NCBI GenBank assembly: GCA_903896545.1
Contig: CAITYF010000030.1
Span: forward strand, 1 to 64,000
Direction of reading: 5' to 3'
Length of the DNA: 64,000 nt
DNA from: an uncultured Myxococcales bacterium
Lineage (GTDB): Bacteria; Myxococcota_A; UBA9042
Positions within the stretch are counted from its first letter, which is position 1, and the number at the start of each line of letters is the position of its first letter. This document shows positions 2,021 through 39,730 of this stretch, piece after piece. Made by a program: the position numbers and the translations under genes. Below the pieces are notes generated by a model that made no database searches, was not told the DNA's origin, and was given only the letters and a program-made list of their open reading frames with translations.

Positions 2021-2342
2021 CCACGAACCTCCACGCCTGCCCCGAACGGTAGCACCTTCTATGCGCGATTTCAGACTACGCGTCGCCATCGCTCACCGCA
2101 TTCACATCAGCAAGCGGCGCAGTGTCCAGCTTGGCTACCGAATCTGCTTCAACGACTTTGCCATCAACCTACAACCAGCCCCATCCGCCATTTTGCCGCC
2201 GCTGACTGTCACGAGCCATCCGTTGGACGTATAGACGGCGGAGTTGAAGTCGCCGCTGCCACGGCCTCTCACGCGTCACCGTTCCGCAGCGTCACTCACG
2301 GCATCGCGTGTCGACGCCGAACGCTGTGAATGCACACGCTCG
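2021..2342. other. Intergenic stretch, no gene seen
   Basis: This spacer lies between two minus-strand lipoprotein genes. A short minus-strand phrase near 2190-2255 (FNSAVYTSNGWLVTVSGG) looks protein-like, but it has no start or family I can name and may be decayed coding sequence. I saw no hairpin with a T-tract and no convincing promoter. Confidence 0.3.
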
Positions 2343-22798: not shown

Positions 22799-23225
22799 GA
22801 CGCGGGCCGGCGCCGCGGGCGCGCCGGATCTGAGGGAAACGCAGTTTCCCTCAGACTCCCTTCCTTGGGGGCGGGCGGTTGAGGACGGCGGAGTTCTGGT
22901 ATCGGCGCCATAGCGCCTCCTAGCAAGCTTTCGCGTTGGGCCTCGAGTTGGATGGCGGGGATCGCCTTCTCGGCGTGCGGGGCCCCGATGCGCGCCGCTT
23001 TGCGGCGATCGGTACCGCGCCTCGGTTGAGAGGATTTGGGGGCTGATCCGTTGGGGAAGAGGTTTTGGCGTGTTGCCGCGCGGTGCGTACGACCCCGTGC
23101 CGCGGGCACTGTGGATCTTGGCCCTGTCGGTCAGCGCATTTCCGCACTTGTGGAAGACCCGCTCGCGGTGCCCGCGTGTAGGGTGGCAACCGCCGCTCGC
23201 GCGGTCGTTCGCAAGTCGGACTTGG
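22799..23225. other. Intergenic stretch between convergent genes
   Basis: No gene is supported. The region begins with a GC-rich inverted repeat around 22807-22827 and a perfect 12-bp stem-loop at 22829-22855. After that it is GC-rich, low-information sequence. Several overlapping minus-strand frames stay open but show no conserved motif, signal peptide or ribosome-binding site. It lies between acnB (plus) and the phosphoesterase gene (minus), so no promoter is required here. Confidence 0.4.
22829..22855. terminator. Perfect 12-bp stem-loop downstream of acnB
   Basis: TCTGAGGGAAAC and GTTTCCCTCAGA form a perfect 12-bp stem around the loop GCA, 31 bases past the acnB stop codon and between convergent genes. 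Neither arm is followed by a T-tract, so it is not a textbook intrinsic terminator. It may stop transcription from either side, stabilise the acnB message 3' end, or be a copy of a dispersed repeat. Confidence 0.4.
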
Positions 23226-24638
23226 TCACTTGTGCGGAAACGCCTTCACGCACGCATCCGCCTTTGCCTGATTCAACGTCGTCGCAGCAAACGCAGGCGG
23301 CGTGGCGAATTCCGGCTTCGCGAAATCGAAAAACTCGGCGGGCACGTGGCTGTTCGCATCGCGCTTGGAGAGCGCGGGCATCCCAAAGCGCGCTTCAATG
23401 AACCGCAGAATCGACGCGTTGGAAAGCCGCTTGTGCGACACAAAGTGCTTGCGCGCGTACGGCGACACGACGATGAACGGCACGCGCACGCCGTAGTTGT
23501 CAAACGGCACTTCGAGGTCGCCCTTCTTGCCGTCAAACGCCGAATCGTCCGGCACGCACGCTTTGGGCGGCGGCACGTGGTCGAATTGGCCGCCGTGCTC
23601 GTCAAACGTGACAAACAGCGCGGTGTGCGCCCATTGCGGGCTCTTTTGCACCGCGTCGACGACGTCAAACACGAACTTTTCGCCCAATTGCACGTTGCCC
23701 GGCGGGTGGAAGTCGTCACAGCCGCCCTGGGCTTGCTCCAGCAGGTCCGGGTCGACAAAGACGACCTGCGGTAGTTTGCCGGCCGCAGCGTCTTTGGCGA
23801 AGTCGGCGAGCGGCACGAACCGGTCGAGGTGGCTTGTGTAGCCGTCCACGAGGATGCCGAGGCCGGGTACGGACTCGTTGTAGACCTTCCACTCGACCTT
23901 GGCTTCGTCCAAAAGGTCCATGATGCTGCGGTGTGGATCGCCAAAGATGGCGTTGTAGGTGCGGCCAAAAGCGCTGCCGGCGTAGAGGAACAAGCGGTTC
24001 ATGTCGGTCGCGCCGAGCGCGTCGCAGAAGAAGCGGTCGCCGATCGCGTACGTGCTGGCGAGTTGGTAGAAGAACGGAATGTCCGCGTCCGTGTAGTAGC
24101 CCATCGCGCGGTGCCCGTCCGGGTCGAGTGATGAACCGCCGTTGGCCGTGCAGAATCCGTCCATCTTGCCGCCGTTGAATTGGGCGTGGACCTGGTTCCA
24201 TTGGTGCGTTGTGTCGTCAAAGCAGTAGTCGTCGAAGTGAAACCACGCCACAGATTTGCCTTTGCCGTCGACGTTGCTGGCATCGTCGGGCGCGCCCTCC
24301 GCATCGGGCTGACCGAACGCCTTCAAGTGTCCCAGCAGGTGGTCATACGAGCGGTTTTCCATCATCAGCACGACGATGGTGTCGATCGGCGCCTTGCTCA
24401 GGTCCGGCGCGTCGCTGCCAAACGTGGTTGCGGCGAGCGCACCGGGCCCAAAGGCGCAGGCTTCGCGCTGAACGGCGAGCGTCGTCTCCGTCGGCGCGAC
24501 GGCCGTGTCGGTCGCTACGTCTGCGGCAGCGGTGTCCGAGGCGTCCGAGGTCGCGTCTTCGCTTATTGTCGGCGTCGTTCCGCAACTCGCGAGGGAAAGT
24601 GCCACCATCGTCCGCTGCAACCAGTTCCACTTCACCAT
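23226..24638 (-). CDS. Phosphoesterase-family lipoprotein (phospholipase C / acid phosphatase type)
   Basis: The ATG at 24638, preceded by GAGG six bases upstream, opens a signal peptide ending in SLASC (Cys19), then a short Asp/Ala/Thr-rich tether to about residue 55. A GTG one codon upstream is equivalent. The 470-residue protein carries a PF04185 phosphoesterase domain: DTIVVLMMENRSYDHLLGHL (catalytic metal/nucleophile region), DIPFFYQLASTYAIGDRFFC, and FDEHGGQFDHVPPP near the C-terminal metal site. GVRVPFIVVSPYARKHFVSH and ILRFIEARFGMPALS complete the pattern. Members hydrolyse phosphate esters such as phosphatidylcholine or phosphoproteins. The substrate cannot be told from the sequence. 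It is probably anchored in the outer membrane facing the periplasm or surface. Confidence 0.92.
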   Translation of the reverse strand: MVKWNWLQRTMVALSLASCGTTPTISEDATSDASDTAAADVATDTAVAPTETTLAVQREACAFGPGALAATTFGSDAPDLSKAPIDTIVVLMMENRSYDHLLGHLKAFGQPDAEGAPDDASNVDGKGKSVAWFHFDDYCFDDTTHQWNQVHAQFNGGKMDGFCTANGGSSLDPDGHRAMGYYTDADIPFFYQLASTYAIGDRFFCDALGATDMNRLFLYAGSAFGRTYNAIFGDPHRSIMDLLDEAKVEWKVYNESVPGLGILVDGYTSHLDRFVPLADFAKDAAAGKLPQVVFVDPDLLEQAQGGCDDFHPPGNVQLGEKFVFDVVDAVQKSPQWAHTALFVTFDEHGGQFDHVPPPKACVPDDSAFDGKKGDLEVPFDNYGVRVPFIVVSPYARKHFVSHKRLSNASILRFIEARFGMPALSKRDANSHVPAEFFDFAKPEFATPPAFAATTLNQAKADACVKAFPHK

Positions 24639-24830
24639 CACTCACCTCGCCCTGCGCGCCGCGTGGATCGCGGCCCAATTCTGCGGCGCAACGTACGGCG
24701 CGATGGGCATGCGGTTATGACGCGGGCGTAACGATTCTGCGTTTACCAAACCGCGCACCGGCGACCGAGAGATGTCGGCGAAACGTTGCCACATTGACCG
24801 CAACCACCGCCGCTGCACATACTTGCGCTC

Positions 24831-25697
24831 GTGTCGCCTCACCGCCCTTCACCCGTGCTCCACCCTCTCCTCGCCGCGTGCGCGATGGTTGCCCTGTGCG
24901 TCAGCTGCTACTCGCCCCACTACCAGCGCTACAAGACCTTCATGGAGGTCAACGCGCCCGGTAAGCTGGCGACTGCGCAGCCCACCAGCACGGGCATTCG
25001 TCCCGAAGTGCGGTTTCACGTGCGCGTCTACGCCGACGAGTCGTATCGCCACGCCACGTTGCGCTGGGAAGCGGTGGCGCGGCGCCGCGTGGACCAGTTG
25101 TCTACGTTCGTGCGCGATCGCTTTGGCGTCCGCTTGGCGTGCGATTCCGTCGTACCTTGGCGGCTGGATGTTCCGCAGACGGGCAACCTGACGGACGCGC
25201 TCGCCGCGCTGCGCAAGCTGGATTCGGGGGAAGATGTCGATTGGGTGATCGCGTTTGTCGGACCAGCGCTTGACGACAACTTTGGCGTCGCGGATCTGGC
25301 GAGCAAGCACATCATCGTGCGACCTGGGTTTTGGCTCCGGGAGCGTCAGACAGCGGCGGAAGTGAAGAACATGAACAGCGAGGACATGGAGCTGCTGATC
25401 CGTGAACGGGCGGAGCATCGCGAGGCGGTCATCTTTTTGCGGACGTGGGCGACGTCGCTCGGTGTGCCGACGGACAACGAATTTGGCTCGATTCAGGCGC
25501 CGAGCTATCGACGCGAGGTCTCGGAATTCAGCCCCGCGTCCAAGAGGGCGATCGAGGTGGGGCTGCGGTATCGCTTCGATTGGACGCCCAGCGGGCGCAA
25601 GGCGTGGCGCGAAGCGATGCTGGCGCTGATTGCGGAAGACCCGGCGGCATTTTCACCCGCGGCCGCCGACGAAGTGCGGGCGTGGTCGGCGCGGTAA
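24831..25697 (+). CDS. Lipoprotein with a zincin-like fold whose metal-binding motif is lost
   Basis: The 288-codon frame starts at GTG 24831; GTG 24855 is an alternative nearer the signal peptide, which ends in LCVSC before SPHYQRY. No ribosome-binding site discriminates between them. The mature protein resembles secreted zincin-like metalloproteases found next to lipoproteins in myxobacteria: an N-terminal beta strand HVRVYADESYRHATLRWEA, a DWVIAFVG strand, and the helix AVIFLRTWATSLGVP. Aligning that helix with the common LLHEWAHTLGxxH puts Arg, Thr and Thr where His, Glu and His should be, so zinc binding is not expected. It may be a pseudo-protease. I have no homologue in hand, so the fold call is an inference. 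The neighbouring phosphoesterase gene is divergent, 190 bases away. Confidence 0.5.
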   Translation: MSPHRPSPVLHPLLAACAMVALCVSCYSPHYQRYKTFMEVNAPGKLATAQPTSTGIRPEVRFHVRVYADESYRHATLRWEAVARRRVDQLSTFVRDRFGVRLACDSVVPWRLDVPQTGNLTDALAALRKLDSGEDVDWVIAFVGPALDDNFGVADLASKHIIVRPGFWLRERQTAAEVKNMNSEDMELLIRERAEHREAVIFLRTWATSLGVPTDNEFGSIQAPSYRREVSEFSPASKRAIEVGLRYRFDWTPSGRKAWREAMLALIAEDPAAFSPAAADEVRAWSAR

Positions 25698-25710
25698 CCG
25701 GACCCGACGC

Positions 25711-27102
25711 CTACTCTCGACTCGGCACGACACGCACAGTCAGCCGCGGCATCAGCCGGTAGCCCGCGTCAAACCGCTCGATCCAGTCGCGCAAGCCCAG
25801 TTTCCGCAGGCGATTCAGTTCCACGTACACGCGGTTCGCGCCCGCTTCGGGCAGAGGCCGTTCACCTGGCCAGCCGACTTCAAGGAGGTCCCACACCGTC
25901 AGCGTTTCGCCAGGTCGTGCGCGATGCTGTTCTGCCAATGCCCGTACAATGCGCCGCGAGGCTGTTCCCACCCTTTGCTTCTGGCCATCGGGACCGGCTA
26001 GCCACGCCACGTGCTCGTCCATCGACAGCACCGGCGGTTCGTCGGCCGTTCGCGGATCGCTGTCCGCCAAGGGCACCGGTTCATCGGCCAGGCTGATGCA
26101 TTTCGCGGCAAAATGGGCAAAGCCTGACTCGTCCAGTGACGTTCCCATCGCCGAGCGAATTTCGGTGGCGGCAGTGACGGCTTCCTGCCAACTCACGCGC
26201 CGTGCGGGCACTTCGCCGACGATGCGTTGTTCGACCCAGCGGAGCTGGTCCATGAACGCTTCGTCGTCCTCGCGGATATCGCCGTGGAAAATGCGCGCGA
26301 GGCGCGGCGGCAACTCCGCGTACGGCAGCAACGAGCGCATGAAGAGCACCATCGCGACGTAGTCACCCATCTGGGACGCGGGCGCACCACCGGCGAGCTC
26401 TGGCGCGTGGAATGCCACGGCCGTCCCATCGACTTGCCCGAACTCGTTCTCCACCGAGAAGTTGCGCCCCAGGCCGATGAGCCACCAGCGGCCGTCGTCG
26501 GCGAAGAGTACGTTGTTGTGGGAGAAGCGGCCCATGAAGATCGGTCCGCCCGAACTGGGATGTTCCGCCGCGTGCGCCGCTTCAAGCGCCAAACGCAAAC
26601 TTACGATGAACGCGTCTGCCGCGCCGTACGGAATCTTTTCGCCACTTTCCGCCATGCAGCGCGTGACGTCCAGCGAGTCGCGGCTGGCTGGAATATCGAA
26701 TTCCAGAAATGCCTGACCTCCGTACGTGCCAACTTCACTCACGCGCGGCACGAGCGGTTGGTCGATGCGCGCGTGAATGACGGCAACCTCGGCCAGTGTT
26801 GACGCGACGCGCTGCGGGTTGGCGCGCGGACCGCCCAGCACCACAACGCAACGCTCGCCATCGCGCACCCGCCGCGCAGAGACGACGTGAAACGACGCCC
26901 GCGACTGAATCGGCAGTGGATCGGCGTAGCGACCGAGTAGCAAAGGCGACGGTTCAGCGGGTCGAATCGGTTCAAGCACGTCGCAACCACATGCCCGACA
27001 GGGCGCGCGTAGCGTAGCCCCATCGTTGCGTAGGTGGAACGGGGACTTTGCAACTCTCTGTGATGCGGGGACTTTAGCGTCGCGCGTTGGCTTCAGCGGC
27101 AC
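25711..27102 (-). CDS. Pseudokinase-like domain fused to a C-terminal winged helix
   Basis: I take GTG 27102 (463 residues), overlapping the upstream gene by ten bases; GTG 26979 is the main alternative and neither has a good ribosome-binding site. A small CRACGC knuckle lies near residue 40. Residues 50-330 follow the protein-kinase fold: RCVVVLGG in the N-lobe, a catalytic-loop-like GRFSHNNVLF, then WWLIGLGRNF where DFG belongs, and an APE-like FHAPELAG. The catalytic HRD and DFG aspartates are both replaced, so phosphotransfer is unlikely. Residues 380-455 look like a PhoB/OmpR-type winged helix (RIVRALAEQ, ETLTVWDLLEVGWPGERPLP, ANRVYVELNRLRKLGLRDWI, YRLMP). A DNA-binding regulator with a ligand-sensing pseudokinase is the simplest reading. 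Confidence 0.65.
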   Translation of the reverse strand: MPLKPTRDAKVPASQRVAKSPFHLRNDGATLRAPCRACGCDVLEPIRPAEPSPLLLGRYADPLPIQSRASFHVVSARRVRDGERCVVVLGGPRANPQRVASTLAEVAVIHARIDQPLVPRVSEVGTYGGQAFLEFDIPASRDSLDVTRCMAESGEKIPYGAADAFIVSLRLALEAAHAAEHPSSGGPIFMGRFSHNNVLFADDGRWWLIGLGRNFSVENEFGQVDGTAVAFHAPELAGGAPASQMGDYVAMVLFMRSLLPYAELPPRLARIFHGDIREDDEAFMDQLRWVEQRIVGEVPARRVSWQEAVTAATEIRSAMGTSLDESGFAHFAAKCISLADEPVPLADSDPRTADEPPVLSMDEHVAWLAGPDGQKQRVGTASRRIVRALAEQHRARPGETLTVWDLLEVGWPGERPLPEAGANRVYVELNRLRKLGLRDWIERFDAGYRLMPRLTVRVVPSRE

Positions 27103-27671
27103 TCGGTCGGAATCGGCAGCTTCTTGGCGGTCAGCGCCGTGCGCAGCGACGTCAGTCCCGCCGTGCACGCCGCGAACGATCGGTCGCCCAGCACCTTCTT
27201 GATGTCGCACTTTTGCGCCAACGGCCCCTCGGCCGCGCCACAGCATTGCGCCGCTGCAAGGCACGCTGCCTGTTGCGCGGTCGTGTCGGCGACCCACTTG
27301 GCGAACGCCTTGCCTTCCTCAGCGCTCGCCGGACCCAACGTCAGCACGATAGTTCCGAGTTCGACCCGCACTTCATCGGCCCGCAAGGCTTTGGCCTTGA
27401 TGCCATTTTCGCAGGTCAGTTCGTCCCCTGCGGGCGTGCACGGCACTGTGCTCGCGCTTCCCATGCCCGCATCCGCCGTGTCAAAACCGGTGGCGCGAAA
27501 GCGCACCCCGGCGCCTTTCTTGATGCCCTTGCCGACGCTCTCGCGAACGATGTACCAGCGGTCCAGCGCGACGCTCAAGCCGGGCGTCGCGTTGGGTGAC
27601 GTGGGCGTCGGTGTTTGCGCCAGCGCGACAGCAGCACAGAAAACGAGAAACAAAACGGATAGCCACTTCAT
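27093..27671 (-). CDS. Secreted cysteine-containing protein, unknown function
   Basis: ATG 27671 has GGAG six bases upstream and gives 192 residues with a classical Sec signal peptide (KWLSVLFLVFCAAVALAQ), probably cleaved after ALA. The mature protein has a C-terminal half with CLAAAQCCGAAEG, QKCDIKKVLG and FAACTAGL, whose six or so cysteines should form disulfides in the periplasm. The central part is beta-rich (DEVRVELGTIVLTLGPAS). I recognise no family. Its 3' end overlaps the likely start of the pseudokinase gene, so the two may be one transcript. A longer frame to 27743 lacks a ribosome-binding site. Confidence 0.8.
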   Translation of the reverse strand: MKWLSVLFLVFCAAVALAQTPTPTSPNATPGLSVALDRWYIVRESVGKGIKKGAGVRFRATGFDTADAGMGSASTVPCTPAGDELTCENGIKAKALRADEVRVELGTIVLTLGPASAEEGKAFAKWVADTTAQQAACLAAAQCCGAAEGPLAQKCDIKKVLGDRSFAACTAGLTSLRTALTAKKLPIPTECR

Positions 27672-28229
27672 CACAAACTCCGCAGAAAAGTGCGCGCAGG
27701 GATACGCCTGAACAGGAAAACCGAGCAGTCGGTCGGTTGTCAAATGCGCCGAATGCCGTGGCTGCGCGGATAATTTCCGTCGCGGGATTGTTTCGGCGCA
27801 TTCGCGAGCCCATGAACCTGACTCGTCTTTTTTCGAATCCGCAGTATGGTGTCTGCGGGGAAAATAGGCGCAGCGAACTCTGAATTCGTCGCCTGTTCAG
27901 CGCCGAAATGCTGCGAATTAAGACTTTGTAAGGCGTGAAATCGCTGTGTAATTTCTCAGCGAGTGCGACGGATTTATCTTCTGAGTTCAACGATATGTCT
28001 GGCGCGCCGCATCGAAATTGGCGGCGAATTCGCGTGGATTCTGCGGTTTGACCCGCTGCCGCGCCGGTTCGTATGCTCAAATCGACGGCAACTCTGACGG
28101 TGCGGTGCGCGGCGGCGCTTCGTACGCGAGTCGTCGATTCCCAGAAATGTACGGAGCACCTTGCCGCTCGTTGGCGGTCTGGATGCGCGAACAAGAGATC
28201 GCCCGGTCGCGGGTCGCAGGAGTTTGTGA
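27672..28229. other. AT-richer divergent intergenic region
   Basis: This 558-base stretch separates two divergent genes for exported proteins and is clearly richer in A and T than its surroundings, especially 27820-28010. No frame in it looks coding. It should contain the promoters of both neighbours; one candidate for the plus-strand gene is listed separately. I saw no strong hairpin or direct repeat. Confidence 0.5.
28048..28077 (+). promoter_or_regulatory. Candidate sigma-70-type promoter for the 28230 lipoprotein gene
   Basis: TTGACC at 28048-28053 and TATGCT at 28072-28077 are separated by 18 bases, a fair match to the -35 and -10 consensus. It lies about 150 bases before the lipoprotein start codon. 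Proposed by eye only. Confidence 0.3.
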
Positions 28230-30254
28230 ATGAAGAATTGGATCTTGGCCTCGGCCTTGCTGCTGGCATCGGCCTGTGGAACAACAACCGGCGCGTCGAC
28301 GACCGCTGAAGATGCTGCGACGACGGGCGATGACCTCGGCGTCGGCACGGACGCGACTGCGGCGGATCTGGGCGCCAGTGAAGACTCGGCTTCGACCGGC
28401 ACGGACGCTGCGGCGGATGCCGGCACGGACGCCGCGGTGTCGCCAGATGTCACGGACAACGACGCCGTGCTGGTGCCAGACGGTGCGGAAGACGTGGCCG
28501 CTGGAACGGACGCAGTTTCGCCGGGTGAGGACGTCGTCGGCGTGGACAGCCAAGTTCCCGATTCGGGGACCGCAGACGTGACGGAAACGCCCGACACGGG
28601 CGTTGCAGACGCGGGTATCACGGACACGGCACAGACGCCGGATGCCATCGCGGACGCTGGAAATCCGGTTGACGCGACGGTGGATGCTCCGGACGTGGGC
28701 AAGCCGGTCGAGCAGGGTTCATCGTGCGATCCAAACAAGACCAACCAATGCGGCAACTTGCAGACGTGCAAAGCCGGGCCGGACACGAAGTTCTATTGCT
28801 TCTGCCCCGATGGTCAGGCGTACCAGGGCGGCATCTGTGCGGGCGACACGAGCCAAGTCCAGTCGATGTGCGCGTACTTGAGCAAGGACTGCAGCGCGGA
28901 GGGCTACTGCTACGACGTCACGACGTCGACATGCACCTACCTGGCCGACCACAAGCTCACGCACCCCGCGTGCGCTCTGTTGGGCACTAACAAGTCCGTT
29001 GCGACGTGCGTGAGCGCCATCACCGACAAGACCAGCCCGTACTTCACTTCAGCGCAGTGCCCGCTCGTCCAATACTGGTCGAATCCCAGCGACTTCCCGA
29101 TTGACTGCCGGTGCGCGGGCAAATTGGAAAACCTCTGCAAGCGTCCGTACACGTTGGGCGCGGCCATCAGCTTTGGCGACGGCCCCCGCATGCGCAACCT
29201 CGCGAGCACGGTTCAGGCGTGGAACGGCGTCGTGGTCAACGGCGAGTGGCTGTTGCCGGTCGGTTGGTCGACGGCGTCCAAGAAGAGCCAGACGATGATC
29301 TTCGGCATCGATCTGAAGACCGGCAAGCGCCGCTATTTCTCGGGTACGTACGACGACCCGTCCAACGGCTACACCACCGTTGCCGCCGGCGACCCGTTTG
29401 TCAACGTCATGGACATCAAGCTCGGCGCGGATGGATCCCTCTATGCGGTCGGTGCTTCGAGCGACATTGCCGCGCCCAAGGTCTGGAAAATCGACCCCGT
29501 CACCGGCGACCGCACGCTGCTCTTTGACGAAGCGACCGCCGATCCGACGACGCTCTGCGCCAACGGCTCCACGTTGCCCGGCAAGAAGGTCATTCAAATG
29601 GTCCCGGAAGGCTGGGCGATGGACGCTTCGGGCAATTTCTACTTCGCGTACATCAACATGCCCGGTCGCGGCGTGGTGAAGTTCGGCAAGGACTTCGCCA
29701 AATGCGAGTTCCTGACGATGGTACCCGACCTCAACCAGTCGACCACGATGAAGACCGCGATCGGCACCGGCTACGACAGCATTCAGTTTGAAATGCGCGC
29801 TTTTGAGATCATCGCGGACAAGCTCTACGCCGTCGCAGACACGAAGCTCATCGAAGTCGACCTCGCAACTGGCGCGCGCAAGCTGATTTCCAATGCCAAG
29901 GACATCGGTGGCTTGGGCGGCGGTCCCATCAACGCGGAAGGTCTGGGCGACCGCTGGTCCAAGTGGGACCCGTACCGCAACGTCTTGTGGACGCACGGCA
30001 TCTCTGGCGGAAACGGCGCCATCGCCGTGGACTTGACGACCGGTGACCGCACGACGTGGCCTTGCTGGCACCCCGGCATGGGCATTCTCGGCGGCTGCGG
30101 CGGCACGGGAACGTCCTTGATTCCCGGCTATCTGAGCTACGGCGGCATGATCATCGACCCCGTTGAACCGCACGATCTCTACTTCGCTCACGACCTCTTT
30201 TCCGTGGTGAAGTACGAAGTGAAGACCGGAAACTCCTACATCCTCTCGCTGTAG
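28230..30254 (+). CDS. Lipoprotein with Asp-rich tether, Cys-rich module and predicted beta-propeller
   Basis: ATG 28230 follows AGGAG at seven bases. The signal peptide ends in ASAC (Cys16). Residues 20-165 are an Asp/Thr/Ala/Val-rich low-complexity tether. Residues 168-310 are a Cys-rich region with EGF-like spacing (CDPNKTNQCGNLQTC, CFCPDGQAYQGGIC) followed by CAYLSKDCSAEGYCYDV. Residues 310-674 show repeated propeller-like blades with phrases such as VNVMDIKLGADGSLYAVG, KVWKIDPVTGDRTLLFDEA and ADTKLIEVDLATGARKLI. They suggest an SMP-30 or WD-like beta-propeller, possibly six blades. No catalytic signature stands out. The protein is likely surface-exposed and ligand-binding. It stands alone on its strand. 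Confidence 0.8.
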   Translation: MKNWILASALLLASACGTTTGASTTAEDAATTGDDLGVGTDATAADLGASEDSASTGTDAAADAGTDAAVSPDVTDNDAVLVPDGAEDVAAGTDAVSPGEDVVGVDSQVPDSGTADVTETPDTGVADAGITDTAQTPDAIADAGNPVDATVDAPDVGKPVEQGSSCDPNKTNQCGNLQTCKAGPDTKFYCFCPDGQAYQGGICAGDTSQVQSMCAYLSKDCSAEGYCYDVTTSTCTYLADHKLTHPACALLGTNKSVATCVSAITDKTSPYFTSAQCPLVQYWSNPSDFPIDCRCAGKLENLCKRPYTLGAAISFGDGPRMRNLASTVQAWNGVVVNGEWLLPVGWSTASKKSQTMIFGIDLKTGKRRYFSGTYDDPSNGYTTVAAGDPFVNVMDIKLGADGSLYAVGASSDIAAPKVWKIDPVTGDRTLLFDEATADPTTLCANGSTLPGKKVIQMVPEGWAMDASGNFYFAYINMPGRGVVKFGKDFAKCEFLTMVPDLNQSTTMKTAIGTGYDSIQFEMRAFEIIADKLYAVADTKLIEVDLATGARKLISNAKDIGGLGGGPINAEGLGDRWSKWDPYRNVLWTHGISGGNGAIAVDLTTGDRTTWPCWHPGMGILGGCGGTGTSLIPGYLSYGGMIIDPVEPHDLYFAHDLFSVVKYEVKTGNSYILSL

Positions 30255-30286
30255 CGCCGGGCCTTCCTCGCGCCAACGGCTCGTGG

Positions 30287-30961
30287 CTACTCCGGCAGCC
30301 CCAAAGCCCGCACCAGAAACTGCACAAACGGCACCGTCTGCTCGAGCCGTTCGATGATCACCGATTCCATGTCCGCGCTCAGCACCTCTGCGTCTGTGAG
30401 CGGACTGCTGAGGGCGAAGTCCTTGCGCTTGATGTCCTCGATGAAGGGATGTTTGGGGTCAAAACCCGCCGGCGGCTTCTTCAGGGACTCCCCGACCATG
30501 CCGCACGGTGAAACACGAGAGGCTGCGCCGACCGCGTGTCCCCAGGCTTCGGGCTGCTGGCCGATGGCCTGACGGATGCGCGCAACGGCTTCCGCATCGG
30601 GTCGCCACAGACCGCCGCCGACAGCTGACGAATCCGGGGCGATGCGCAGGTAGAACGCCGGGGCCGCATCTTCGCCACCCGCCTCGTGCCAAAACTGTGC
30701 GGCAAAGGCAGGTTTGTACGGCGACTTGTCCTTGGAGAACCGTACGTCGCGGAAGATCCGCATCAGCGAGCCACCCTGCGGCCGTGGATCCACGACGGTA
30801 TGCGGCGACAGCGCGCGAATCCGCGGGGCCAAATCCACCAGCAATTGCAGCATCGCGTCGCGGTTGGCCTCGTAGCGTTTGCGATTGGCATCGAACCACA
30901 CGCGGTCGTTGTTGGCCTTCAATTCGCGCAGAAAAGGCATGAAATCGGCGGGCAAGGGCAT
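30287..30961 (-). CDS. DUF2461 (TIGR02453) family protein
   Basis: The ATG at 30961 has GGAG six bases upstream and yields 224 residues; an ATG two codons earlier lies too close to that GGAG. The whole length matches DUF2461: FMPFLRELKANNDRVWFDAN, RYEANRDAMLQLLVDLAPRI, MRIFRDVRFSKDKSPYKPAF and the C-terminal LVRALGLPE. The family is widespread, cytoplasmic and of unknown biochemical function; some members are annotated as conserved single-domain proteins with no catalytic claim. It converges with the propeller lipoprotein, with 32 bases between the stops. Nothing odd is visible in it. Confidence 0.92.
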   Translation of the reverse strand: MPLPADFMPFLRELKANNDRVWFDANRKRYEANRDAMLQLLVDLAPRIRALSPHTVVDPRPQGGSLMRIFRDVRFSKDKSPYKPAFAAQFWHEAGGEDAAPAFYLRIAPDSSAVGGGLWRPDAEAVARIRQAIGQQPEAWGHAVGAASRVSPCGMVGESLKKPPAGFDPKHPFIEDIKRKDFALSSPLTDAEVLSADMESVIIERLEQTVPFVQFLVRALGLPE

Positions 30962-31360
30962 CGTCATCTCCGTTTGGTTGCCATGCGCCTTTGGCCACCC
31001 GACATACAATCAGCTGGCACGTGGCAATGCGGGCCGCGGCTGCGGACTGCCGTAAAGCCTCGGGGCGGCGCGCCCCTGCGTCATTTTCTACCGAACCGTT
31101 GACGCTGTCGATTCTACGGCGACCGCGTCGCGGACGACCGCTTCGTGCGCTGCGGCCTGTTCTGTCTCGAACCCGTGGCAAAGAGCCGATGCTGCAGCGG
31201 AGCCACAGGCGGAGTAGGACGCAGAAGGAGCGGTATCTTAGGTTGTTGGACAGAGCCTGGCCCGAACGGCGACAGGTCTGACTCACTCCGGCACGCGATT
31301 CTCAAGAGGTCAGCATGTGTCGCTGAGTCCGTTCCGTCCCCGCACCGTTTGCGCGCGGCG
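30962..31360. other. Intergenic stretch, no gene seen
   Basis: About 400 bases separate two minus-strand genes. Several frames are open through it on both strands, but none has a ribosome-binding site, signal peptide or recognisable motif. The stretch probably holds the promoter for the DUF2461 gene near its left end and the end of the operon transcript at its right end. No hairpin with a T-tract was found. Confidence 0.35.
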
Positions 31361-31987
31361 TTACCACGGCTTCTTCACGGCAACGGGCACGGACACGCTC
31401 CGTTGTTGCAGCTGGCGGCGGCACGCAGGGCAGAGGTCGTCCTCGCCATCGACCGTTGCGACCTTCCCCCGCGCGTCTTCCATCAGGCAACCTTGCGTCG
31501 GGCAGTGCTCCAAGCCAAACGTGTGCCCGACTTCGTGGGTCGCAACTTTGGCCATGCGCGCCAACTCCACGCGCACCGGCACGCCGCGTCGGGCGCGGTA
31601 GGACGACAGCACGCACGCGCCACCGTCCAGACTGCCGAGTCCGAGCACGCCCCAATCCTCGTTCGCACCTTTGCTTGTCGAGATGTCCGCGGACGTCAGG
31701 CCGACAATCTTCTTGCCGTCAGGTGGCAGTCGTTTCTGTAGCCAGTCCAGCAACTTCTCAGCACGCCAACGGTGCCGCGGTGGGTAGAAAGCGCTACGTG
31801 GCAGCGGCGCCGGTGGAAGCACGTGCACAGTCACGGGGTAGAACGCCTGCAACGCCGCGACGATGGCGGCGATGACCTTCGGCCCCGGTGCTGGTTGCAG
31901 CGGCTGCAGGTAGATCACGGGCTGCGCCGCGCAAGCCAGCGATTGCCAAAGGAGTCCGAGCGTCAGCAGAAGAAGTCGAAGCTTCAA
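31361..31987 (-). CDS. Exported archaemetzincin-family zinc peptidase
   Basis: The 208-residue protein contains the full archaemetzincin signature HEVGHTFGLEH (residues 151-161), with Cys162, Cys167, Met169, and the CPAC pair at 186-189. These supply the catalytic zinc (three His), the catalytic Glu152, and a second structural zinc. It begins with MKLRLLLLTLGLLWQSLACA, a Sec signal peptide cleaved near ACA-AQ or possibly a lipobox. Most archaemetzincins are cytoplasmic, so export is notable. Its ATG overlaps the stop of pbpC by four bases (ATGA), and alpha-2-macroglobulin lies just upstream, so all three should be co-translated. A periplasmic aminopeptidase-like role near cell-wall synthesis is inferred. 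Confidence 0.88.
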   Translation of the reverse strand: MKLRLLLLTLGLLWQSLACAAQPVIYLQPLQPAPGPKVIAAIVAALQAFYPVTVHVLPPAPLPRSAFYPPRHRWRAEKLLDWLQKRLPPDGKKIVGLTSADISTSKGANEDWGVLGLGSLDGGACVLSSYRARRGVPVRVELARMAKVATHEVGHTFGLEHCPTQGCLMEDARGKVATVDGEDDLCPACRRQLQQRSVSVPVAVKKPW

Positions 31988-34014
31988 GGCGTCACCTCGT
32001 CAGTCTGTGCAAACGCGCGGTGATCGTGCGCCCATTGACCAGCCACGCTTGGCCACCGCACGGTTTCATCGCCCGCGGCGTCGTGTCCATGCCAATCGCA
32101 CGTTGCACGTGGGCGCTGCGTGGGTAGCACGAATTCGCGCTTCCGATGCGGACAATCCTGAGTCGGCAACAGCCCCGAAAGCGCGCATACCTCGATGGTC
32201 TGCAACGTCTCAGGACGTTGTGGCAGCGTCAGCGTCTTACCGTGCCCCGCCAAGAGCAGCCCCGCGCGCACCAACGGCGCTGCCGCGCGCATCGCCAGCA
32301 GGCCAAAAGTCGACGATCCGTCGAAGTTGCCCGCCCACGCGCCCACGGTCCACTCGTTCGTCGCGCCGATCGCCAGCGTGTCCGAGAAACCGCGCGACGT
32401 GCCGGTCTTCGCGGCGATGGCAAAAGGCAAGTCGATCGGTAGGTCCGCGCCGAAGACCGCGCGCCGCGCGTCGTCGTCCGCCAGCATGTCCATGACTTGC
32501 CACGCGACTTCAGGGCTGAACACGCGCCTCTCCGGGATCGCCTGCGGCGTCCAAAAGGTGCCATCCCCGCGGAGCACGTCCGTGACCCCGTGCGCTGCGA
32601 TGACGCGCCCGTCGCGGACCAGAAACCCAAACGCGGATGTCAGGTCCAGGAGCCGCACGCGCGCCGCGCCCAGGGCGAGACGGAGGCCGTAATCGTTCGC
32701 GTTGCCCGCAAGCGGACCTACGCCCGCCGTGGCCAGTCGCGCAATCAGCCGATTCACGCCGACCTGCTCCAGCACGTGCACTGCCGCGAGATTCAGCGAA
32801 CCCGCCAGCGCATTGCGCAGACGCACCGGCCCCCGCTCTGGCTGCGTCAACCGCCGCACGCGGTACTCAGACGGCACGTCGTGGATGTCCAGCGCCACGC
32901 TCGCTGGGTTCTGACCGTCCTCCAGCGCCAGCCCGTAGATGAACGGCTTGAGCGCAGAGCCGGGATGCCGGCGCCAGGTCGCGATGTCGACTGCGTTCAC
33001 ATCCTCATCGACGCTGCCGGCCAGCGCCGTAACCTCACCGCTTTGCGAGTCCACAATGACCACACCCGCTTGGCTCACACCGTCGTCGCGCAGTTCTGCG
33101 ACGTGGCGCTGCATGCGGGCCTGCAGTTGGGTTTGCAACGTCAGATCCAGCGTTGTGTGTACCACGCCGCCCGACCGCTTCACGTCCTCGGGCAACTGCC
33201 GCAGCACCCACGAACAGAAATGCGGCGCGGCAAATGGTTGTCGCTGGATCGCGACCTGCACGGACTCGGCTTCAATCCGCGCGACGTCCTCCGCCGTCAG
33301 TTGCCCGCGCTCTTGCAATAGCGCGAGCACGTGGTGGCGTCGGACCAGCGCCCGCTCGCGGTGGCGCACAGGGTCGTAACCCGCCGGCGAGCGCGGCAGC
33401 ACGGTCAGCAACGCCAGCTCGCCCGAGGACAAGGCCGCCGCAGGCTTGCCAAAGAACGTCTGCGCCGCGGAACTGAGACCATACGCGCCGCGGCCAAAAT
33501 AGGCGCGATTCAGGTACTGTTCAAGAATCTGCGCTTTGCTCAACGCCCGCTCCAGCCGCGCGGCCAGCACCATTTCCGCAATCTTGTTGCGCCACGTTCG
33601 CGCCTGACCGGGATGCTCCACCATGCGGACGAGCTGCATCGTCACCGTTGACGCGCCGAAGGCCGCGCGTCCGGCCCAGAGGTCCAGCCAAGCTGCGCGC
33701 ACAACCGCGTGGACGTCGACGCCGTGGTGGGCAAAAAAGCCGTCGTCCTCCGCCGCCAGCAGCGTCGTCACGGCAAACGGCGGCAAGTCCGCCAGCCGCG
33801 TCCAGGGCGCGCGCCGGCCGTCGGGGGAGGGCACGCTGCGCAACGGCGTCCCGTGGCGGTCCAGCAAGACGAGCGGGCCGTTTTGCGCGGGATCCAAACG
33901 CTGGACGGGGTAGCGCCAGCCCAGCACCGCAACGGCGAACGTCAGCGACAACGCCACTGCGCCTGCGAGTCCTGCGAGGAGCGCGCGGCGCAGCCACAAA
34001 TAGAAAGTCGCCAT
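31984..34014 (-). CDS. pbpC: Penicillin-binding protein 1C
   Basis: This 676-residue bifunctional class A PBP polymerises and may cross-link peptidoglycan in the periplasm. An N-terminal anchor (residues 10-32) precedes the GT51 domain: AAEDDGFFAHHG (Glu89), GASTVTMQLVRM, RNKIAEMVLAARLE and ILEQYLNRAYFGRGAYG. The transpeptidase domain has SALK (Ser353, Lys356), SLN (406-408) and KTG (536-538). The tail CALSGLLPTQDCPHRKREF followed by CDWH is typical of PbpC. The C-terminal extension found in the 770-residue Escherichia coli PbpC (BiPBP_C) is mostly missing. Three bases separate it from the alpha-2-macroglobulin gene upstream, the classic yfhM-pbpC pairing, and it overlaps the archaemetzincin gene downstream. 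Confidence 0.97.
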   Translation of the reverse strand: MATFYLWLRRALLAGLAGAVALSLTFAVAVLGWRYPVQRLDPAQNGPLVLLDRHGTPLRSVPSPDGRRAPWTRLADLPPFAVTTLLAAEDDGFFAHHGVDVHAVVRAAWLDLWAGRAAFGASTVTMQLVRMVEHPGQARTWRNKIAEMVLAARLERALSKAQILEQYLNRAYFGRGAYGLSSAAQTFFGKPAAALSSGELALLTVLPRSPAGYDPVRHRERALVRRHHVLALLQERGQLTAEDVARIEAESVQVAIQRQPFAAPHFCSWVLRQLPEDVKRSGGVVHTTLDLTLQTQLQARMQRHVAELRDDGVSQAGVVIVDSQSGEVTALAGSVDEDVNAVDIATWRRHPGSALKPFIYGLALEDGQNPASVALDIHDVPSEYRVRRLTQPERGPVRLRNALAGSLNLAAVHVLEQVGVNRLIARLATAGVGPLAGNANDYGLRLALGAARVRLLDLTSAFGFLVRDGRVIAAHGVTDVLRGDGTFWTPQAIPERRVFSPEVAWQVMDMLADDDARRAVFGADLPIDLPFAIAAKTGTSRGFSDTLAIGATNEWTVGAWAGNFDGSSTFGLLAMRAAAPLVRAGLLLAGHGKTLTLPQRPETLQTIEVCALSGLLPTQDCPHRKREFVLPTQRPRATCDWHGHDAAGDETVRWPSVAGQWAHDHRAFAQTDEVTP

Positions 34015-34017
34015 CGG

Positions 34018-37000
34018 CTACTTCACCACGACCGTCGCGCTGGCCGACCGTCCGTGCAAGTCGGGTTCGTACATCGCCTCCACCGTCGTCGGTGCTGCGG
34101 TGAACGTGCCGGAAATCAGCGCCCGCGCCAGATAGTGGAACCGCGTCAGCCCCGCGTTCAGCTGACCTGCAAACGCTCGGGTTTCCTCATCGTGTTGCTC
34201 CTTCCACTGCCAGACCCACCAGCGCCCCGTCCAATCGTCCGCGCCGTACCCGTGGCCCAGCACTTCGTCGTTGTCCTCCGCGCGCAGGCTCGCGCCCTCA
34301 AACCCGGCGGGCAACGGGTCAACCAACGCCACATCGCGGCGCGACTTCGCCGTCTGGATCGCAATCTCCACCTTCACCAGTTGTCCTGCCTTCACTTCGG
34401 TCAGCTCTTTTCCCGTCTCCGGGTTTAGATAGCGCCGAGTCACCTGGAAGCCGCGGTCGACCGCCTGTGCCGGCTGTTCGCGCCGCGCCGTCACCACGCG
34501 CGCCAGGTACCGCACCGGCGTTGTCGTCTGGATGCTCAACGAACCCGGCTGCACGTCTGCCAGCGGCAGGCTCAAGTTCACCGCTTCGTGGCCGTGAATC
34601 GTCTGGTCCGCCAGCGTCTTGCCGTTCAATTGCACCACAACGTGCGCTTCCCCCTTGGACTGCGCCCGTGCCCAAGCTGCCAAGGCCGTGACTGCGTGGG
34701 CGTTGTCGTGCGTGTTCGCCCACGAGCCATCCTCGCGTGCTGAAGTCAGCAAGTGCTGGGCCAGTTTCGGACTCAGAGGGTGCTTGGGCTGCAGGATCAA
34801 GAGCGCCTCCAGCAGCGCCGCGGTCGGCCGAACGTTGCGCAGCGTTGGCCACCACCAGTCGTCCTCGCCCGCGTCGCGGTCCACCACATACGCGGCGTCG
34901 CCCTCGACGACGACGTGTGCCAACAGCTCTGCCAAGAGCGTCTGGATCTGCGCTGTCGGCGCCTTGCTTGCCACCAGAGCGTGCAGGAGGACAGCTTGAC
35001 CAAACCGCGGCAGGGCCGCACGGGCGTCAAAAAGCCGCGTATTGAGGCTCGCGTCCGCGGCGTCCAGCCCGGCAAGCACGTCTGCCGCTTGCACGAGTGT
35101 CACCGTGTCGCGGTTCCCGTTGATTTGCGTCTGCCGCCGCGTCCAATCCGCCAGCGCCCGCGCGCCGTCCATCGCCAGCGTGTGGTCCACCGCGATGCCT
35201 GACCGCAGCAACTCCACCACGCCTTGCATCGCGTACACGGTGTAATGCGGCTCACCGTGACCACCCGGCCACAGGCTGAAGTGCCCGGAAGAATCCTGGA
35301 ACTTCAAAAGTTTCGCGGCGCCCGCGGCCAGATACTTGTCCAGCGTCGGCCCTTGCAGCCCGTCCAGGCCCGCGACCACGGCGAGTTCCTTCACCTTGGC
35401 AAGCGGCACCAAGCGCGACAGCGTCTGCTCCAGACAACCGTACGGGTACGCGATGAGCGCCTTGAGCGCCGGCTGCAGCGCGGCCATGCCAGTGCGGTCA
35501 ATCGCGATTTCCAGGCGGCTTGCGCCCGCGACGAACCCCGGCTGAAACGCGACCGGGATCTCGACACGCTGCTCCGTGCGGCCTTTGCCCGCGACCGTGC
35601 GGTCGACCATCAGGCGCTCCACCAGCGGCAACTCCATTTCGACGCTGTCGTGTGACTTGCCCAGCGAGACGTCAATCCGCAGCGTCGCTTTCTCGCCTGT
35701 CAGTGCGGTCGCCGCAAACGGCACGCGGATCGACCCTTCCGACGGCACCTGCACGCGCATTTCCGCCTGGTCCACAGTCACACCTGTTGCCGTCACCTTC
35801 ACCAGCGCCTCGCCCGCCACGCCAGAGTGGTTGTGCACCAGCACACCGAGATCGGCGCGATCGCCCGGTACCAGGAACCGCGGCACGATGGGCTGTGCCT
35901 GAACCGGCTTCTTGACCGTGAAGCGCTTGTCACCCGATCCGAACCGCGCGCCATTGTCCGCCGCGATCGCCATGACGCGAAAAGCCGTCAGGTTGTCCGG
36001 CGCGGTGAAGTGGACCGTCACGGTGCCGTTCTCGTCCGTGACCAACGCGGGTGCCCAGAACGCCGAGGACAGGAATCGCTTGCGAACCTGGGACCGCGCC
36101 GCGCTGTCGCCGCCTTCCTCGGTGTCGTTCACGTGCGGATCGGATGGGCGCAAGAGGTTGGTCCAGTTCGTCGCGGTCGTCACCGCCCAGTCCCACGGCG
36201 CGTACATGGGGTCGTGCAAGTCGGGCGTCCGGAAGCCAATGAGTTGCAACACGCCTTCATCGGCGACGGAGACGGCGACTTCACCCACAACCGGTGCGTC
36301 ATTGGAGCTCAGTCTCACGGTCGCCGTGACTTCCTCGCCGGGTTCGTACGACTCGCGTGCCGTTGTGACCGTCACTTTCAGATGCCGATCACTGGCCACC
36401 ACGGGCAAGTTCACAACGCCCATCTGCAAGCGTGGTCGCTGTTTGTCCTCCGGACCCGAACGCCCTTGGACAACCGTCACGCTCGCCATCACGTTGGGCG
36501 CGTTCTCGGCGCTCAGGCGGAAGTCGAACGGCTCCGCTTGGCCCTTCAGCGGCTGCACCCGCGCATCCAGCACGCCGTTGCGCTCCACGGTCAGCAGCGC
36601 AAGCCCCGTGTGCAGCGACGTTCGCGCCAAAATGCGCGCTGAATCTCCGGGCTTGTACGTCTTCTGCGACGCCACCAAATCCATTTTCGCCGCGCCACTC
36701 GGCTGCCACGCAGCGTTGCCCGCCCCGTGCACCCACAGCCAACTTGAAGTCTTGACGACGTGGCCTTTCGCATCCTTCGCCGACAGTTCCACGTGATAGG
36801 AGCCAGGCTCCGGCGGCGTCACTGTCAGTGCGGTCTGGGCCCCGTTCAGTGTCACTTGTTGCTCCGTGCTTGCGGTCTCCACGTGCTTGCAGTCCTCGTC
36901 GTACGCCGAACTGTGACGACGCGGCGTGCACACCCAGTCTTCGCGCACCAACTTCAACGTCGCCGACGTCCGCGCTGGAGTGCCATCGGGGTGCAGCGCA

Positions 37001-39549
37001 ACGGCTTGCAGCGTCACCGCCTTCTTGGCCTCCGCAAGCCACGGCGAATTCAGACCGACGTAGAACTCCGAGGGGTACAGCACGGTCACGGTATGACCCG
37101 TTACGGTGTCGTTTGCCGCGTCGACCACTTCCGCCGAGATGACGTAGTCCACGGGACCGCTGCCATCTTCCTTCCCCGGTTGCACGTTGAATGCGAAGTG
37201 TCCGGCGTCGTCGGCTGTGCCCGTGCCTTCTGCGCCGGGCTCGACCGCATCGCCACCGCTGTAGTCGTCGGAATAGCCATACTCAGAGGCTTGGAAATTC
37301 CAGTCTTCATAGCCTGAGAAACCGAGATCATGGCGCCGCACCGCCGCAGTCCACGAGACTTTCGCGTGTGCGACCGGAGCGCCAAAAAGGTACCGAGCGT
37401 CGACTTGAAACGGCAGCGCTTGCCGCGAGCCCGGCTGGGGCGCGGGGCCAGCAACCTTGACCTCAAACGTCTGACGGCGAAATTCCGCGACCAGAAACGA
37501 CTGCTGCAGCGTTGCGCCGCCGACGTCCGCGGCCACTTCCCAATCACCCAGCGCGGCGGTTTCCGCCACGTCCAGGTCAAAGGAGAAACCGCCGAACGGC
37601 GTCAGTTCCAAGTCTTTTTGCAGCATCACGGCGCCACGCGCGTCCTGGACTTTTACGTGTGCCACTTTTTCGCGCGGCACCGTCATGCCTTTGCCGGACA
37701 CGTCGCGCACGACGCCCTTGAAGTGTGCGGTCTCGCCAGGGCGATAGACGCCGCGGTCAGTGAACAGCACGCCGCGGATCGTAGCGGCCGCGCCGTTCCA
37801 GCTGTAGGGCACACCAAAACTCCACGGATACATGCCTTGCCGCCAGTCGCCGAGCGTCACGGCGAGGTCGTCGCCCTTTTGCACGACCACCAGCAGGTCC
37901 GTTGCGCTGAGCGTGTGGCCGCCCTCGTTTTCCAGCGCTGGATTGTCGGCGCCCTTGGCTTTTGGCCCCAGCAGTGTTTCGTTGCCGGGCAGGCGCCAGA
38001 GACCAAGCTGGTTCGTCGTGCCATGCGCCGTTGCCAGCCCCGAAGGTGCGAACACCTGTGCGGTGGCGTCCGCAATTGGCTTGCCGTCGTGTAGTCCAAC
38101 CGCCCACACGAGACCGGATTCCGTCCCCGTCTTCACCACCAGACCGATGTCCGTCACGTTGGCGAGCAGCCGTTGCTGCCACGGTTCATTCCACGGGCGC
38201 GCTTTCAGCGCCTTCAGTTCGCTCGACGTCACTTCCGCCACGACAAGTCCGCGGCTCGCCGTTCCGCATTTCGCGGGCAGGTCCAATTCGTCCTTGTGCC
38301 ACTTGTCGGTCGTCGAAACGATCGGCAGGTCAAACTCCTGCACCGCCAGTCCCGACCAATCCAGGGCTTCTTGGCTCTCATCGCTCCATGATCTTTGGAT
38401 CACGTTTGCGTGCTGGGCCATGAAGACCGCGGCCTTGTCGGCGGCGAGCATCGCGCACTTCACGTGGACGCTGGAAATATTGCGCGTCCACAGCAGCGGC
38501 CGCCGGTCCGCCTCAACCGTCACGACGCCGCGGTCCATGCGCATGCGCGGCTTGCCGTTGCCCGTCTGGAACGCGTAAGTCGGCGAGACGTCCAAAGCCA
38601 GCGCTTGGCCGTATTCGTCGTGCAAGTCCTTGTCGACGGTCAGCGTGTACTTCGTGCTCGGCTCCAAATCCAGAACCGCTTCCCGCGCCTCGTCGTCGGC
38701 CCACGTCCAGGCGTTCGCCAGCGTTTTCACCGGCGGGTTCAGGTGTACGGACTTCGCGACGGCTTCGATGTCGACCTGCGTGGAGAACTGAATTCGCAGA
38801 CGCGCCTCGTCCGGCTCGATCCGCGCGTCCTTGGACGGCGTGACCGACACCACTTTGAACGCCGGCGCCACCGTCAACGTCGTTTCAAAAGGCGCATCCA
38901 GCGGCGCATCGCCCGTGGCGGGAGGAACGTGGTCGCAATGGAATTGAAACTGCGCCCCAGGCGGCAACGAGGGCGCACGCAGGGCGACTTCGGTGGCGAT
39001 CGCGGTCGGCACTACAGCCTGCAGCGCGACTGGCGTGTCGCCACCTTGCAACACGCAATTGGCTGCCGCCGCTTGGGAACGCACTGGCTGGTTGAACGTC
39101 AGGTAGAGGTCAAAACCGCGTGACGGCGCGCCGCGCAGGTCCACGCCGGTGACGCGCAGGAGCGACAACGGCGCCTCCACGAACGCGAACTCGTGCTCCA
39201 CCGTCCGATCCGCCAGCGCGCCACGCAGCGCCAGTTTGTACTGCGTCGCCGCGTGCAGCCCCGCCGTTTCCACCAGCAGCGTCTGCGGGTCGGCCCAGCG
39301 TGCAGTCATTTTGCCCGCAGGACCTTCGGGCGCGGGCGTGAGCGCGACCGGCAGATCCGTCAGCGGTTTGCCCACCGCGCTCGCGGGCACAGCTGGTGCG
39401 CTGAACTGCAGGCGCAGCGGTTGTTCAGCGGAGACGTGCGCCGTGGGTGAAAATGAAAGCACGTGAAGGTCCGCTTGAGGCTTCTTGGTGCACGCAAAAA
39501 CGGCAAAAAGGGCGACGAAGGCGGGGACGAAGCGCGGCAAACGGGCCAT
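34018..39549 (-). CDS. yfhM: Bacterial alpha-2-macroglobulin (YfhM type) lipoprotein
   Basis: This 1843-residue periplasmic protease trap is thought to guard the envelope against invading proteases by covalently caging them. ATG 39549 has GGAGG seven bases upstream, and the signal peptide ends in FAVFAC (Cys20). Macroglobulin domains fill the N-terminal half; LFTDRGVYRPGETAHFKG near residue 600 is the A2M_N signature. SAFWAPALVTDENGTVTVHF near 1170 marks the A2M domain after the bait region. The thioester motif CLEQ is present at about 1372 (YPYGCLEQTLSRL), so covalent trapping is expected. The length exceeds the 1653 residues of Escherichia coli YfhM. It leads an operon with pbpC and an archaemetzincin. 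Confidence 0.96.
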   Translation of the reverse strand: MARLPRFVPAFVALFAVFACTKKPQADLHVLSFSPTAHVSAEQPLRLQFSAPAVPASAVGKPLTDLPVALTPAPEGPAGKMTARWADPQTLLVETAGLHAATQYKLALRGALADRTVEHEFAFVEAPLSLLRVTGVDLRGAPSRGFDLYLTFNQPVRSQAAAANCVLQGGDTPVALQAVVPTAIATEVALRAPSLPPGAQFQFHCDHVPPATGDAPLDAPFETTLTVAPAFKVVSVTPSKDARIEPDEARLRIQFSTQVDIEAVAKSVHLNPPVKTLANAWTWADDEAREAVLDLEPSTKYTLTVDKDLHDEYGQALALDVSPTYAFQTGNGKPRMRMDRGVVTVEADRRPLLWTRNISSVHVKCAMLAADKAAVFMAQHANVIQRSWSDESQEALDWSGLAVQEFDLPIVSTTDKWHKDELDLPAKCGTASRGLVVAEVTSSELKALKARPWNEPWQQRLLANVTDIGLVVKTGTESGLVWAVGLHDGKPIADATAQVFAPSGLATAHGTTNQLGLWRLPGNETLLGPKAKGADNPALENEGGHTLSATDLLVVVQKGDDLAVTLGDWRQGMYPWSFGVPYSWNGAAATIRGVLFTDRGVYRPGETAHFKGVVRDVSGKGMTVPREKVAHVKVQDARGAVMLQKDLELTPFGGFSFDLDVAETAALGDWEVAADVGGATLQQSFLVAEFRRQTFEVKVAGPAPQPGSRQALPFQVDARYLFGAPVAHAKVSWTAAVRRHDLGFSGYEDWNFQASEYGYSDDYSGGDAVEPGAEGTGTADDAGHFAFNVQPGKEDGSGPVDYVISAEVVDAANDTVTGHTVTVLYPSEFYVGLNSPWLAEAKKAVTLQAVALHPDGTPARTSATLKLVREDWVCTPRRHSSAYDEDCKHVETASTEQQVTLNGAQTALTVTPPEPGSYHVELSAKDAKGHVVKTSSWLWVHGAGNAAWQPSGAAKMDLVASQKTYKPGDSARILARTSLHTGLALLTVERNGVLDARVQPLKGQAEPFDFRLSAENAPNVMASVTVVQGRSGPEDKQRPRLQMGVVNLPVVASDRHLKVTVTTARESYEPGEEVTATVRLSSNDAPVVGEVAVSVADEGVLQLIGFRTPDLHDPMYAPWDWAVTTATNWTNLLRPSDPHVNDTEEGGDSAARSQVRKRFLSSAFWAPALVTDENGTVTVHFTAPDNLTAFRVMAIAADNGARFGSGDKRFTVKKPVQAQPIVPRFLVPGDRADLGVLVHNHSGVAGEALVKVTATGVTVDQAEMRVQVPSEGSIRVPFAATALTGEKATLRIDVSLGKSHDSVEMELPLVERLMVDRTVAGKGRTEQRVEIPVAFQPGFVAGASRLEIAIDRTGMAALQPALKALIAYPYGCLEQTLSRLVPLAKVKELAVVAGLDGLQGPTLDKYLAAGAAKLLKFQDSSGHFSLWPGGHGEPHYTVYAMQGVVELLRSGIAVDHTLAMDGARALADWTRRQTQINGNRDTVTLVQAADVLAGLDAADASLNTRLFDARAALPRFGQAVLLHALVASKAPTAQIQTLLAELLAHVVVEGDAAYVVDRDAGEDDWWWPTLRNVRPTAALLEALLILQPKHPLSPKLAQHLLTSAREDGSWANTHDNAHAVTALAAWARAQSKGEAHVVVQLNGKTLADQTIHGHEAVNLSLPLADVQPGSLSIQTTTPVRYLARVVTARREQPAQAVDRGFQVTRRYLNPETGKELTEVKAGQLVKVEIAIQTAKSRRDVALVDPLPAGFEGASLRAEDNDEVLGHGYGADDWTGRWWVWQWKEQHDEETRAFAGQLNAGLTRFHYLARALISGTFTAAPTTVEAMYEPDLHGRSASATVVVK

Positions 39550-39730
39550 GAACGGGCCTCCGGGAACTGGCGGGTGAAGAGCCAGTTTGTGCGCTTGTCA
39601 ACGGGGTACGTCAAGGTTCAATTCACCGGCCCAACGGGCATTGCCGCCGATTTCCAGCAGATTGCTTGTCGCCGCCCCCGTCGCCCGTTACGATGCAAAA
39701 GGGCGGATGTTTTGGCCCCCGGATGGCAGG

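Follow-up and report, generated by a model that had tools for sequence, protein, structure and literature searches.

An exported protease encoded directly behind a macroglobulin protease trap and a cell-wall synthase raises the question of whether the three proteins work together or whether the third gene has simply come to lie there. In the 64,000-nucleotide stretch of DNA analysed here (the window), the three genes are on the minus strand in the transcription order A2M, pbpC, archaemetzincin, with a 3-base gap at the first junction and a 4-base overlap at the second. The A2M gene (34018..39549, minus strand) encodes a Type I bacterial alpha-2-macroglobulin of 1843 aa with the Pfam domains A2M_BRD, A2M, MG2, bMG3, bMG5, and bMG10, in which a CXEQ thioester (CLEQ; 35425..35436, minus strand) accompanies BRD, A2M, TED, and MG10 regions, and its N-terminus (LFAVFAC/TKKP) marks it as a probable lipoprotein. 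The pbpC product (31984..34014, minus strand; 676 aa) has an N-terminal membrane anchor and the Transgly (PF00912) and Transpeptidase (PF00905) domains of a bifunctional peptidoglycan synthase, with the catalytic signatures EDDGFFAHHG, SALK, SLN, and KTG intact. Because it scored 464.1 bits against the cut-off of 494.2 for the PBP_1c equivalog TIGR02073 and lacks a BiPBP_C tail, we refer to it as PBP1C-like. A Type I A2M followed immediately by pbpC on one strand is the yfhM-pbpC arrangement, for which the model given in PMC5764988 has the macroglobulin trapping proteases that enter the periplasm and PBP1C mending the wall. To this extent the preliminary description, which had placed pbpC three bases beyond an A2M with an intact CLEQ, was confirmed in gene content and order.

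The same genome carries a second, canonical yfhM-pbpC pair without an archaemetzincin (G000:C106:21804-30244; L059), whose A2M and PBP are about 28% and 37% identical, respectively, to those of the window, and whose PbpC has the BiPBP_C tail that the window protein lacks.

The third gene (31361..31987, minus strand) encodes a 208-aa archaemetzincin of peptidase family M54. Since it starts with TTG, its overlap with the pbpC stop (31984..31987, minus strand) reads TTGA and not ATGA as first reported, and a GAGGTGA Shine-Dalgarno sequence lies inside pbpC just upstream of this start. Scans for promoters, terminators, tRNAs, and Rfam families returned nothing useful. The N-terminus reads as a Sec-type signal peptide, MKLRLLLLTLGLLWQSLACAA (31925..31987, minus strand), with probable cleavage before Q22 (QP follows), and hydrophobic signals are conserved in the homologues; a periplasmic location is therefore predicted for the mature protein. 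A possible lipobox, QSLAC, was judged weak, its Cys being absent from relatives.

The zinc-binding motif HEVGHTFGLEHC (31502..31537, minus strand), which CLM and CPAC follow in the Cys4 site, is part of HEVGHTFGLEHCPTQGCLM-x16-CPAC, matching the family signature HExxHxxGxxHCx4CxM...CxxC with a spacer one residue shorter than the x17 given in the preliminary description, which was otherwise right about an exported archaemetzincin with a full catalytic motif. The protein passed the Pfam M54 model PF07998 (36.8 bits; cut-off 24.4) and missed that of NCBIfam NF033823 (103.2 bits against 145), although the latter match covered nearly the whole model at an E-value of 1.4e-29. Solved archaemetzincins (2x7m, 4axq, and 3zvs) were matched by phmmer at 6e-13. 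The AlphaFold (AF2) model had a pLDDT of 96.1, and its top five Foldseek matches, including 3lmc, were all archaemetzincins, the best of them (3zvs, 2x7m, and 4axq) with TM-scores of 0.69-0.72 by query and 27-28% identity in the fold alignments. With motif, Pfam, and fold in agreement and NF033823 missed, we read the protein as a divergent M54 branch and do not assign it to the NF033823 subfamily. Residues H151, E152, H155, and H161 are invariant among 59 aligned relatives, and the HExxHx5H signature is retained in 94 of 94 distinct relatives; together with full-length homologues (52-64% identical) at seven loci of the family, this shows that the gene is not a chance reading frame. The retained catalytic residues predict proteolytic activity. 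The archaemetzincin gene is the sole M54 gene found in this genome.

Searches of GTDB and of whole genomes gave 173 M54 loci, duplicates among them. A scan of the GTDB contigs with the single protein returned no match, and an alignment-based rescan gave 174, of which the best 80 were used. From these loci, 94 distinct ones with a strong match to a window-type profile were taken as an exported clade, found in Myxococcota and in Bacteroidota such as Flavobacterium, with sporadic M54 loci elsewhere. Extending the sampling class by class brought in few further genomes, as the phylum set was nearly exhausted. Of the 89 clade members with an intact N-terminus, 75 were signal-positive in a crude scan, and several of the 14 negatives show evident signal-like segments that it missed; 17 signals were Tat-like and 16 lipoprotein-like. 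By the same scan, 17 of the 67 remaining M54 genes had a signal, most having none. Many exported archaemetzincins carry Tat-like RRxFL signals (L070, L073, L080, and L087), which suggest export in a folded, zinc-loaded state, and those of Flavobacterium resemble lipoproteins. As the export signal is common to the whole clade, mostly without an A2M neighbour, it does not point to a role with the macroglobulin.

Which of the two upstream genes, if either, accompanies the archaemetzincin elsewhere could be followed across the same 173 loci (GTDB part, best 80 of 174), bearing in mind that the neighbouring genomes are mostly draft metagenome assemblies in which contig ends hide some neighbours (the G221 archaemetzincin starts at a contig edge). 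A2M adjoins the archaemetzincin in two genomes besides the window, G114 and G043, so that for this pair uniqueness to the present genome did not hold. Both of these archaemetzincins have signal peptides, and in all three genomes the A2M comes first. G114, a member of the same family, has its A2M at 795-3191 (minus strand) of locus L048 (on contig C161; the same locus as L062), joined to the archaemetzincin by an ATGA overlap with no pbpC present. This A2M is 51% identical to that of the window and consists of a lipoprotein signal followed by bait, A2M, and TED regions only, without MG1-6 and MG10, and with an apparent 1-nt frameshift near its 5' end in a draft assembly; the "mini-macroglobulin" may be a real remnant, a new form, or an assembly error. 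In G043 (L207), from a distant Myxococcota family, a full A2M of 2066 aa, of a different subtype and with a CAEQ thioester, meets the archaemetzincin in a TAATG overlap, and the latter has HEIGHVMGLPHN with a reduced, partly lost Cys4 site.

For pbpC the outcome was the reverse. Among the same 173 loci it adjoins an archaemetzincin in the window only, two others having another, non-adjacent PBP no further than about 3 kb away. Pairs of A2M and pbpC of the window type are present in the distant Myxococcota genome G246 (38% and 53% identical to the window pair), in G077, and, in reversed order, in G273 and G116, and no archaemetzincin was found flanking any of these four, the contigs of G077 and G273 ending at the pair. 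The initially proposed link to PBP1C is thus unsupported, and we dropped it. In G273 and G116 (L142 and L143) pbpC lies upstream of A2M, opposite to the usual order, and the G116 A2M was called at only 1430 aa. About 92 of the 94 exported loci lack an A2M neighbour and other partners vary: in G186 (L049; 1874-4569, minus strand) a DUF2330 gene has its end overlapped by the exported archaemetzincin gene, and in G153 a GH94-like gene precedes the archaemetzincin. Clustering of 749 neighbours of 95 loci yielded, apart from A2M, nothing beyond lineage synteny and families that are very common. The original interpretation was supported in part: for the trap and the exported protease, the coupling recurs.

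The search started from the window, which leaves G114 and G043 as the recurrences that count. Two upstream A2M neighbours compare with about 0.03-0.06 expected by chance over the 94 loci under assumed gene numbers, and with the window and its relative G114 set aside there is one independent case, G043, against a chance of about 0.03-0.05. A single clade of the window, G114, and G043 archaemetzincins was rejected by the AU test (p = 6e-5), which implies two or more origins of the adjacency, or else an ancestral adjacency that was widely lost. A quick tree grouped the window with G114 and G221 (support 96), a grouping that a careful 20-row tree does not resolve. A2M is also commoner in genomes with an exported archaemetzincin (31 of 33) than in those without (160 of 251; Fisher p = 3e-4, kinship ignored).

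The three genes lie in a block of about 17 kb (22799..39730) that is variable among close relatives. In the congener G005 (L295), the orthologue of acnB (93% identical) is 270 bp from the orthologue (71%) of the window gene at 39731-42934, and in G050 (L296), also a congener, the arrangement is similar, with two other genes between them. As the block is missing from both, we concluded that it is accessory, and with it the three-gene cluster. Its flanks are acnB on one side and an EGF/NHL-repeat protein gene on the other; the latter (39587-42934, plus strand) encodes 1115 aa with slime-mold (Dicty_CTDC) and NHL repeats, and its relatives number about 55-98 matches per genome throughout the family. 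A DUF2461 gene next to the cluster inside the block is located elsewhere in G153 and G050. The block does not stand out in base composition, and no tRNA was found in it.

Based on these data, we regard the cluster as an extended yfhM-pbpC operon of a rare, accessory kind, and the macroglobulin-protease link as a recurrent, testable lead that is plausible but unproven and not an established system. A working relation between A2M and the archaemetzincin, which would make the cluster an accessory envelope-defence operon, has in our judgement close to an even chance of being correct. Under it, an archaemetzincin from a widespread, normally stand-alone exported clade would have been recruited by a yfhM-pbpC operon; translational coupling would then yield a lipoprotein trap, a membrane-anchored PBP1C, and a small zinc endopeptidase of the periplasm together, with the protease produced whenever the trap is. 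Gene content, coupling, export signal, catalytic residues, fold, and the recurring A2M-archaemetzincin coupling are the observed basis of this proposal; co-expression of the three genes, periplasmic location, proteolytic activity, and any dependence of the archaemetzincin on A2M or act upon it are inferred from them. The enzyme's likeliest role would be narrow-specificity proteolysis in the compartment of A2M, on A2M itself or on products that A2M has captured, or alternatively A2M might restrain the enzyme. The substrate is probably a narrow one, because archaeal archaemetzincins showed no activity on standard substrates (PMC3427221) although AMZ-tk from T. kodakarensis is active (PMC4681839). 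That exported archaemetzincins in general are envelope partners of thioester macroglobulins (for processing, for clearing, or as a restrained client), as a rule from separate loci in trans but brought together in a single operon on more than one occasion, seems to us rather unlikely.

Favouring a working relation are the overlapping stop and start codons in both recurrences, the rejection of one origin for the three archaemetzincins, the different A2M subtype of G043, the excess over chance, the association across genomes, and the coupling kept in G114, where pbpC is absent. Against it stand the many loci without A2M and with other partners, the missing block in the congeners, the rearranged A2M of G114, the partly lost Cys4 site of G043, the inactivity of archaeal archaemetzincins on standard substrates (PMC3427221), and the single independent case left once the window and G114 are set aside. 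Alternatively, a solitary exported archaemetzincin may have landed downstream of A2M-pbpC in a rearrangement-prone block, where it would be transcribed with the operon, have no dedicated partner, and serve general periplasmic or extracellular peptide processing. We consider this a real possibility, if somewhat short of an even one: most relatives are solitary among unrelated neighbours, coupling partners switch, the block is missing from G005 and G050, and both the window-type pairs elsewhere and the C106 pair do without an archaemetzincin, but independent recurrence with overlapping coding ends and the retention of the archaemetzincin beside a rearranged A2M in G114 argue against it.

Protease-inhibitor operons are a known pattern in bacteria, and the trap precedes the protease in all three cases, so A2M might be a cognate safety trap, made first from the same message to catch archaemetzincin misfiring in the cell's own periplasm. 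We think this improbable, as hardly any of the exported archaemetzincins have an A2M next to them and, with the known enzymes of the family showing no activity on generic substrates (PMC3427221), there may be neither a trigger nor a need for a broad trap. More improbable still is an inactive zinc-binding partner like the CarG branch of M. xanthus: inactive archaemetzincins do exist in myxobacteria (NF033824; CarG, PMC3427221) and some exported relatives have lost Cys residues, but the window protein has an intact HEVGH and scores 34.3 bits against the NF033824 cut-off of 250, and neither the HExxHx5H signature nor the catalytic E152 varies among the relatives compared.

A working A2M-archaemetzincin relation would bear on two questions. 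Bacterial macroglobulins have been described as traps with a wall-repair partner, and the question here is what becomes of a sprung trap and whether the cell contributes a protease of its own; exported bacterial archaemetzincins are essentially unstudied in the papers found, and even the archaeal and mammalian members of the family have unclear substrates and functions. The pair, present in two unrelated lineages, offers a concrete and cheap test of both, and should it turn out to be a coincidence, what is left is an exported M54 clade deserving annotation. We found no paper treating archaemetzincin and macroglobulin together, which is weak evidence of novelty given a search without most subscription journals, and within the same coverage no description of an exported bacterial archaemetzincin surfaced in those parts of the archaemetzincin literature that were accessible.

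Compared with known systems, the window has, like yfhM-pbpC of E. coli and Salmonella (PMC5764988), a bifunctional PBP1C encoded immediately behind a lipoprotein macroglobulin with CXEQ, and differs in adding an exported archaemetzincin as a third gene, in a PBP1C without BiPBP_C, and in being an extra copy beside a canonical pair. With the M54 archaemetzincins (AmzA of M. kandleri and A. fulgidus, human AMZ1/2, and AMZ-tk) the protein shares the metzincin fold and the full zinc and Cys4 signature, but it has a signal peptide and x16 Cys4 spacing, and where the archaeal proteins have FVFGEA the window type has a conserved DWG(V/I)LGLG. CarG (NF033824) of myxobacteria belongs to the same superfamily and phylum, yet it is an inactive transcriptional partner whose catalytic Glu is replaced by Gln (PMC3427221), whereas the window protein keeps HExxH and an export signal. 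The mag operon of P. aeruginosa, in which the Type II A2M MagD occurs with MagA, B, C, E, and F, likewise co-expresses a macroglobulin with envelope proteins, but MagD has no thioester and no such peptidase is among the partners named in the passages of PMC5764988 consulted.
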